Shown piece after piece: positions 352-1,896 of a stretch of 45,828 nucleotides of DNA. Each line of letters opens with the position of its first letter. The first letter of the stretch is position 1. The notes under the pieces are model-generated. The model saw nothing but the letters and a program-made list of their open reading frames with translations, did not search any database and was not told where the DNA came from. The position numbers and the translations under genes were made by a program. Origin of the DNA: Spirochaetales bacterium (lineage in GTDB: Bacteria > Spirochaetota > Spirochaetia > Sphaerochaetales > Sphaerochaetaceae); the NCBI GenBank assembly GCA_017614375.1, contig JAGABZ010000014.1:1-45828 (forward strand), given 5' to 3'.

Positions 352-380
352 TTGACCAGTACGGGCGAATTTGGTATGGT
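352..380 (+). promoter_or_regulatory. Promoter of the uraA leader transcript
   Basis: TTGACC (352-357) and TATGGT (375-380) are spaced 17 nt apart. Transcription would start near 387, about 20 nt before the leader peptide ATG and about 140 nt before uraA. Confidence 0.75.
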
Positions 381-407
381 CTGTTCAAGAACCCGAGGAG
401 GCACCCT

Positions 408-485
408 ATGGCCGTGAAGATCATCAATCTGCCACTGACCGAGGGGTTCTGTTTTCCTCCGGTTCACGGTTTTGGAATCAAGTAG
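408..485 (+). CDS. uraA leader peptide (25 codons), putative attenuator ORF
   Basis: This short reading frame starts with MAVKIINLPL and ends HGFGIK. It follows a strong Shine-Dalgarno (GAGGAGG, about 397-403) at good spacing. Its stop codon TAG (483-485) shares its last base with the 5' arm of an intrinsic terminator. The transcript contains U-rich runs inside the ORF (CUGUUUUCC and GGUUUUGG) where RNA polymerase could pause at low UTP. This is the layout of the E. coli pyrBI/pyrE attenuators: a ribosome close behind a paused polymerase covers the terminator arm and lets transcription enter uraA. When UTP is plentiful polymerase outruns the ribosome and terminates. The peptide has no runs of one amino acid, so amino-acid starvation is an unlikely signal. 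No PyrR-type anti-antiterminator is recognisable. Translation itself is inferred. Confidence 0.65.
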   Translation: MAVKIINLPLTEGFCFPPVHGFGIK

Positions 486-514
486 ACAATCACAGCAGTG
501 GTTGTCTTTTTTTT
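485..514 (+). terminator. Attenuator terminator in front of uraA
   Basis: GACAATCAC (485-493) pairs with GTGGTTGTC (498-506) in nine base pairs including one G-T pair. The loop is the tetranucleotide AGCA, and eight T residues follow (507-514). The uraA Shine-Dalgarno GGAGG follows directly at 515. A strong terminator inside the leader of its own gene implies conditional read-through. Confidence 0.85.
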
Positions 515-525
515 GGAGGTAAAGG

Positions 526-1896
526 ATGACCAAACAGGAAACTCAGGAACCGATCCGCGACGCCAGGACGCTGGGCACACCCAAAATGCTCGTTCTGGGA
601 CTGCAGCACTTCTTCGCCATGTTCGGCGCGACAGTACTGGTTCCGCTGCTCGTTAATGGCTACGGCCTGCCGCTCTCGATGCAGACCACTCTGCTTATGG
701 CAGGTCTCGGAACCCTGCTGTTCCACCTGCTGACCAAGCTCAAGGTTCCGGCCTTCCTCGGATCCTCGTTCGCCTTCCTCGGCGGTTATGCCGCCATAGC
801 CGAGCTCAGCGCCGGCAAGTTCGAAAACATGGCTGCCGCTGAAAAGCTCCAGTACGCCGGCGGCGGCATCGTGATTGCCGGTCTTCTCTACCTGGTCCTG
901 GCCCTGATCATCAAGTTCGTCGGAGTCAAGAAGGTAATGAGATTCCTCCCGCCGATCGTAACCGGACCGATCATCATCCTCATCGGTCTGACCCTGGCCC
1001 CGTCCGCCGTGTCCAACGCCGCCACCTGCTGGCCGCTTGCCCTGGTTGCCATCGCGATCATCGTTGTCTGCAACATCTGGGGCAAGGGCATGATCAAAAT
1101 CATCCCGATTCTCCTCGGAGTTGCCGGAAGCTATCTGGTGGCCCTGCTGGCAACCGCCTTCGGCGCTCAGCTGATTGACTTCACCGCCGTCAAGGAAGCC
1201 GCCTGGTTCGGACTGCCGTTCCTCAACACCCAGGCCAACAACGCCTTTATCCTTGCCAAGTTCGACATCACCGCCATCCTCGTCATGGCCCCGATTGCCA
1301 TCGCCGCGATGATGGAGCACGTCGGAGACGTCTCCGCGATCAGCGCCACCACCGGAAACAACTTCGTCGAGGACCCGGGTCTGAAGAGAACCCTGGCCGG
1401 TGACGGACTTGCCACCGCGTTCTCCGCCCTGTTCGGAGGCCCGGCGAACACCACCTACGGCGAGAACACCGGAGTTCTGGTCCTGTCAAAGGTCTACGAC
1501 CCGCGCGTAATCAGAATCGCCGCCGGATTCGCCATCATCCTCAGCTTCTGCCCGAAGTTCGCCGCCATCATCAGCTCGATGCCCAGCGCGATCGTCGGCG
1601 GAATCTCCTTTATCCTCTACGGAATGATCTCCGCCATCGGAGTCAGAAACGTCGTCGAGAACCACGTCGACCTGACCAAGTCCAGAAACCTGATCATCGG
1701 TGCTGTGATTCTCGTCTGCGGACTGGGCTTCAGCAGCGGAATCACCTTCAAGATCGGCGAAGCCTCCATCACCCTGACTGCCCTGGCAATCGCCGCTCTG
1801 GCCGGAATCATCCTCAACGCCGTCCTCCCCGGAAAGGACTACGAGTTCGGCGCCGAGGCCGACGGAAAGAACCCCGGAGACCTGGGAACCTACTGA
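526..1896 (+). CDS. uraA: Uracil permease (NCS2 family)
   Basis: This inner-membrane nucleobase:proton symporter imports uracil for pyrimidine salvage. The 456-residue protein is the usual length and has about 14 hydrophobic segments. Family hallmarks are FAMFGATVLVP (residues 30-40), LGSSFAF (78-84), EHVGD with Glu264, and NTTYGEN with Glu313. The two glutamates match the uracil and proton-binding residues Glu241 and Glu290 of E. coli UraA. The start is the ATG at 526 behind GGAGG with 6-nt spacing. It is a single-gene transcript preceded by the leader-peptide attenuator, so UTP-responsive control is likely. Codon use is strongly biased to C-ending codons, consistent with high expression. 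Xanthine transport is a remote alternative, since the motifs favour the uracil branch. Confidence 0.93.
   Translation: MTKQETQEPIRDARTLGTPKMLVLGLQHFFAMFGATVLVPLLVNGYGLPLSMQTTLLMAGLGTLLFHLLTKLKVPAFLGSSFAFLGGYAAIAELSAGKFENMAAAEKLQYAGGGIVIAGLLYLVLALIIKFVGVKKVMRFLPPIVTGPIIILIGLTLAPSAVSNAATCWPLALVAIAIIVVCNIWGKGMIKIIPILLGVAGSYLVALLATAFGAQLIDFTAVKEAAWFGLPFLNTQANNAFILAKFDITAILVMAPIAIAAMMEHVGDVSAISATTGNNFVEDPGLKRTLAGDGLATAFSALFGGPANTTYGENTGVLVLSKVYDPRVIRIAAGFAIILSFCPKFAAIISSMPSAIVGGISFILYGMISAIGVRNVVENHVDLTKSRNLIIGAVILVCGLGFSSGITFKIGEASITLTALAIAALAGIILNAVLPGKDYEFGAEADGKNPGDLGTY

Follow-up and report, generated by a model that had tools for sequence, protein, structure and literature searches.

A probable UTP-sensing attenuator of the pyrBI/pyrE type upstream of uraA in a spirochaete and its relatives

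Introduction

Sensing of UTP via coupling of the ribosome and RNA polymerase is experimentally known from E. coli and its relatives. In the pyrBI operon of E. coli, the leader ORF pyrL has a Shine-Dalgarno (SD) sequence, encodes a peptide of no evident role and precedes pyrimidine genes; the U-rich sequence GTTTTTC, used here as a control, lies 30 nt before the stem of an intrinsic terminator. pyrL has 44 codons and continues for 46 nt beyond the base that opens the stem, so that the terminator is inside the ORF, and tight coupling is needed to prevent termination there (PMC5021804). At E. coli pyrE, the translated ORF ending just before the terminator of the pyrimidine gene is a whole gene, rph, rather than a leader peptide; in MG1655 rph is frameshifted, and its stop is 34 nt before the stem. 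When a stop codon is placed 5 bp before the terminator in E. coli, coupled translation lowers termination from approximately 90% to below 10% (PMC4824070).

Two other types of attenuators share some of these features. PyrR-dependent attenuation of pyr genes (Bacillus type) also places a terminator before a uracil permease gene and follows the pyrimidine supply, while amino-acid leader attenuators (trp, his, phe) combine a short leader ORF with a terminator. In a survey of attenuators published in 2010, leader-peptide systems were found only in Proteobacteria, Actinobacteria and, newly, at hisS of Firmicutes (PMC2965389).

Here we describe the region upstream of a nucleobase permease gene in the window, i.e. 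the whole analysed stretch of 45,828 nt from a genome of the phylum Spirochaetota, and compare it with the systems above.

Results

Anatomy of the uraA leader

The features of the region are collected in Table 1. The first-pass annotation had proposed a promoter, an SD sequence, a 25-codon ORF whose stop shares one base with a terminator, and the SD of uraA; this layout proved correct to the base. In particular, the leader ORF starts 6 nt downstream of AGGAGG, and its stop codon TAG overlaps the terminator stem by exactly one base, G485. The terminator is formed by the arms GACAATCAC (485-493) and GTGGTTGTC (498-506), with the loop at 494-497. The U-rich stretches claimed within the ORF are also present (GTTCTGTTTTCC and GGTTTTGG), and virtually no 45-nt window of uraA reaches the U and UU content of the 45 nt before the stem. 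uraA forms a monocistronic transcription unit that ends at the terminator downstream of the gene. The best-scoring specific model for the uraA product is uracil permease, with a score under the strict cut-off of that model, and the product is likely a uracil permease.

Table 1. Features of the uraA leader region, in window coordinates
Feature	Coordinates	Strand	Details
Predicted sigma-70-like promoter	352..380	+	TTGACC 352-357, 17-nt spacer, TATGGT 375-380, TG before the -10; consensus scan
SD of leader ORF, AGGAGG	396..401	+	Read from sequence; GGAGG or AGGAGG in 12/12 near relatives
Leader ORF, 25 codons, MAVKIINLPLTEGFCFPPVHGFGIK	408..485	+	ATG 408-410, TAG 483-485; relatives retain the frame but not the peptide
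U-rich stretch, candidate UTP-sensitive pause region	449..475	+	Includes GTTTTC (451-456), 34 nt before the stem
Predicted hairpin across leader ORF	389..465	+	389-407 (SD side) pairs with 443-465
Intrinsic terminator	485..514	+	9-bp stem 485-506, loop AGCA, T8 507-514; compensatory changes in relatives
SD of uraA, GGAGG	515..519	+	Read from sequence
uraA, NCS2 nucleobase permease, uracil type, 456 aa	526..1896	+	ATG 526
Terminator 3' of uraA	1917..1946	+	

Compared with pyrL, the leader is shorter (25 codons), ends with the base that begins the stem, and its target is a permease gene. The geometry is closest to that of rph-pyrE.

Conservation of the leader among near relatives

The near set comprises 12 genomes, including that of the window, with uraA genes 74-100% identical and readable upstream DNA. 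The nearest homologue with a name (L031, 80% identical), from a MAG, carries the label Spirochaetales, in agreement with the first-pass description of the genome as spirochaete-like; the family is probably Sphaerochaetaceae. All 12 loci have an SD sequence, an ORF of 19-34 codons, a stop on or in the terminator and a U-rich 3' end. The gap between the stop and the stem is from -1 to +1 nt in nine of the loci, and in the remaining 3/12 the stop lies within the hairpin. The terminator hairpin covaries, with compensatory changes across the set. Moreover, the SD sequence, the start codon and the open frame are retained in each of the 12 loci, the bases between them varying freely, while the leader peptides are unrelated, with pN approximately equal to pS in the closest trio. 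The reading frame thus appears to be kept and the peptide sequence not, and the alignment of upstream regions that the first-pass annotation had proposed yields the expected conserved ORF and terminator with a variable peptide.

For the window alone, the chance of an in-register stop, estimated by shuffling the ORF body, is about 6%. The product of such chances over the 12 relatives is about 4e-10, a value that is overstated, because kinship makes the relatives non-independent.

The layout persists behind differing upstream genes. An ordinary terminator of the upstream gene was rejected as an explanation, because that gene is separated from the hairpin by a promoter-like site and an ORF and the layout does not depend on which gene is upstream.

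A more distant permease gene (L022, 49% identical to uraA) is found in a genome of the same genus as the window (G027). Its leader candidate is a 9-codon ORF, MTRFILMFE, the shortest of the set, with a strong terminator 1 nt beyond its end.

Distribution of the device

The same device is found upstream of pyrB. In most of the 36 pyrB loci from the family of the window genome, a leader ORF finishes at a terminator, and, by automatic criteria, 37 of a further 41 pyrB loci of the family have a terminator and 28 have a leader ORF. It also occurs at pyrB in the spirochaete families f24, f3, f4, f5 and f17, while in many other spirochaete families neither a terminator nor a leader was found upstream of pyrB.

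With strict criteria, 26 devices were identified in 546 kb of spirochaete loci, 12 at uraA and 14 at pyrB, and none elsewhere, in a scan biased by the choice of loci, mostly made around pyrimidine genes. When the genome of the window was scanned in part, with a pattern whose minimum spacing misses the window's own site, no further gene with the device was detected. In the DNA searched, the device marks pyrimidine genes, namely uraA and pyrBI.

Several pyrB loci differ in detail. The leader ORFs of three loci from genus g8 (L118-L120) have no evident SD, start a few nucleotides downstream of a -10-like site, being possibly leaderless, and finish on the terminator TACCGG..CCGGTA. In two other loci (L121, L122) the form is pyrE-like: 8-9 nt, including TTTTTT, separate the stop of the upstream gene from the stem of the attenuator. 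The pyrB of the family, exemplified by L219 (1474-3075), is an ORF of 533 aa that has a cluster of cysteines at its C-terminal end and seems to be a pyrB-pyrI fusion.

U-rich element and predicted hairpin

The 45 nt preceding the stem are enriched in U relative to the downstream coding sequence, the mean percentile being 0.95 for U and 0.99 for UU. The mean number of U in these 45 nt is 17.2 in leaders, compared to 12.5 before ordinary terminators (p 1e-10), with several pyrB leaders only modestly U-rich (11-13 U in 45). A more specific motif, [AG]TTTTC or [AG]TTTCC located 20-40 nt before the stem, is present in 34 of the 77 non-redundant leaders and before 4 of the 159 ordinary terminators, while shuffled sequences predict 4.4 leaders with it; the p value of 2e-15 is optimistic, as the motif was derived from the same data on which it was tested. 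Among Clostridial leaders the motif occurs in 5/20, so the signal there rests on general U-richness. The motif is read in all three phases (11, 9 and 7 cases), and therefore it seems to be selected as nucleic acid and not as codons. The U-rich element thus appears to behave as expected of a polymerase pause site rather than a codon sensor.

Pairing of the leader SD with the 3' part of the ORF exceeds that in shuffled sequences, with significance reached only over the whole leader set. The predicted hairpin may hide the leader SD unless a ribosome loads early.

These observations bear on a reading in which the attenuator works by the same coupling, while the signal is CTP, or the general balance of transcription and translation, and not UTP specifically. 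C is frequently the last base of the motif, certain Clostridial leaders combine a high content of U with a high content of C, and the predicted hairpin would tie read-through to ribosome loading. However, the occurrence only before uraA and pyrBI and the enrichment in U favour UTP, making this reading rather improbable.

PyrR and pyrimidine metabolism

The first-pass guess that PyrR is absent was borne out. In the window's own genome (1.54 Mb, 98.4% complete), the best match to pyrR scores 20.7 bits, the cut-off being 138, and no pyrR above the cut-off was found in any of 14 genomes of the family (this one and 13 relatives). The same holds for 20 Clostridial genomes, 18 of which bear leaders. 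Five genomes of genus g16 from the same family (G102, G103, G104, G118 and G119) served as a positive control: they have pyrR, scoring 231-237 bits, divergent from uraA at a distance of about 250 nt (L111-L115). In place of a leader ORF, the uraA leaders of this genus contain PyrR-box-like sequences, GGTACAGAGAGACC / CTTTAAGCTGGTACAGAGAGACCGGTAAGGC, identified by eye. Hence, PyrR control and leader-ORF control appear to replace each other within one family.

According to a different explanation, the uraA leader is an attenuator of the PyrR type, or an RNA binding another protein or ligand, with the ORF being incidental. A long predicted hairpin indeed precedes the terminator, and genus g16 shows that PyrR and a PyrR-box-like uraA leader exist in this family. 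Still, PyrR-dependent attenuation requires both the protein and its RNA site, and no pyrR above the cut-off was found in this genome or its 13 relatives; moreover, the SD, start codon and frame are kept in all near relatives while the intervening bases change. The window leader has no match in Rfam, including the known riboswitch aptamer families, a collection that does not recognise the PyrR-box-like leaders of g16 either. On balance, this explanation is very unlikely.

Neither pyrB nor pyrE was found above threshold in the window genome at its 98.4% completeness, and therefore it probably depends on imported pyrimidines, being a probable pyrimidine auxotroph. Genera g9 and g19 likewise have no pyrB over the threshold. 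The best candidate for uracil phosphoribosyltransferase is a 394-aa ORF (L188 1381-2565; G000:C5 near 131512), whose match to the family is restricted to the C-terminal half and scores under the cut-off. Another region of the genome (L344; G000:C9 near 44340) contains the T-box-like sequence GAGTGGTACCGCGGGTGC, followed by a terminator and a gene of the helix-turn-helix type, with no Rfam match.

Codon content and position of the stop

Phe, Leu and Ile are abundant in the leader peptides (15% Phe), as could be expected if the leader were an amino-acid attenuator, e.g. for phenylalanine, where a ribosome stalled at scarce codons toggles between a terminator and an antiterminator. However, the U-rich motif in three phases has no common encoded amino acid, the target is a pyrimidine gene, and a conserved run of one regulatory codon was not found in the leaders. 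Further, in amino-acid attenuators more than 20 bp separate the leader stop from the terminator (PMC4824070), while here the stop touches the stem. Amino-acid control is hence hardly credible, and its phenylalanine type was rejected on the reading phase and the stop position (PMC4824070). The absence of any regulation, i.e. an ordinary terminator following a chance short ORF, has in its favour only the in-register stop by chance estimated above for a single leader and is contradicted by the comparative data (12/12 conservation, presence at pyrBI and in another phylum, covariation, the U-rich motif), its probability being negligible.

Relation to Oscillospiraceae

In the uraA tree, the spirochaete genes with leaders form the sister clade (100/98) of a clade of Oscillospiraceae (Oscillibacter, Pseudoflavonifractor), at a large distance from the majority of uraA genes in their own family. 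The sister uraA genes also have the device, with leader ends that are strongly U-rich, and the hairpin there, GACGATCAC..GTGGTCGTC, is very similar to GACAATCAC..GTGGTTGTC of the window. Because the sister genes carry the device too, uraA and the attenuator probably moved together. On a tree rooted at the midpoint only, Bacillota are the likelier donors and spirochaetes the recipients.

The first-pass annotation had suggested an independently arranged attenuator on the permease gene. Its assignment to the gene and its likeness to pyrBI and pyrE are supported by the conservation in 12/12 relatives, the absence of PyrR, the phase-free U-rich motif and the pyrimidine-gene targets, whereas the idea of an independent, isolated case was wrong, as the device is common to spirochaete pyrBI leaders and to the uraA leaders of the sister clade. 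A tentative and somewhat doubtful extension is that the protein-free UTP-sensing attenuator is a transferable cassette, which would have been exchanged together with uraA between Oscillospiraceae and gut spirochaetes, replacing lost PyrR and adding a hairpin that would conceal the leader SD if no ribosome loads in the course of transcription.

Discussion

As judged from sequence, of the classes tested only the pyrBI/pyrE class agrees with the anatomy of the uraA leader. It is quite probable that the leader is a transcription attenuator of this E. coli type sensing UTP; we infer that the promoter is used, the leader translated, the polymerase paused and UTP read as the signal. A ribosome would begin translating the leader ORF while the transcript is still being made. 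At low UTP, the polymerase would pause in the U-rich stretch, approximately 10-40 nt before the terminator, letting the ribosome catch up and arrive at the stop codon touching the stem. There it would cover the 5' arm, so that the hairpin could not fold and the polymerase would continue into uraA. With plentiful UTP, the polymerase would outrun the ribosome, the hairpin would form, and transcription would stop at the T8 tract. The leader peptide would be a by-product, and the outcome would be import of uracil when pyrimidine nucleotides are low.

A translatable ORF with a ribosome site between a promoter-like site and a terminator is present in the window and its near relatives (12/12), and the placement of the stop, within one nucleotide of the stem or inside the hairpin, suits masking by a ribosome finishing the ORF in all of them. 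A U-rich region shortly before the terminator is present, judged by sequence only. The identity of the peptide and codons seems irrelevant, given the pN and pS values and the three phases of the motif.

Tightness of coupling is disputed for Bacillus, and, to our knowledge, coupling tight enough for such attenuation has not been established in the phyla considered here. A literature search, with the subscription literature, including the main review of pyrimidine regulation, mostly outside its coverage, found no such attenuators described for spirochaetes or Clostridia. The best reading of our data is that pyrBI/pyrE-type attenuation is new here with respect to both the gene and the phyla.

Most likely, the leader lets uraA be read only at low UTP, and the same switch would operate in many relatives and in gut Clostridia lacking PyrR. 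On the comparative evidence, coupling attenuation would extend to the phyla Spirochaetota and Bacillota, where it would act on pyrBI and on the uracil importer. The genomes concerned lack PyrR, and some of them probably have to import pyrimidines. If this extension is true, coupling in these phyla, a disputed matter, would be tight enough to regulate genes.
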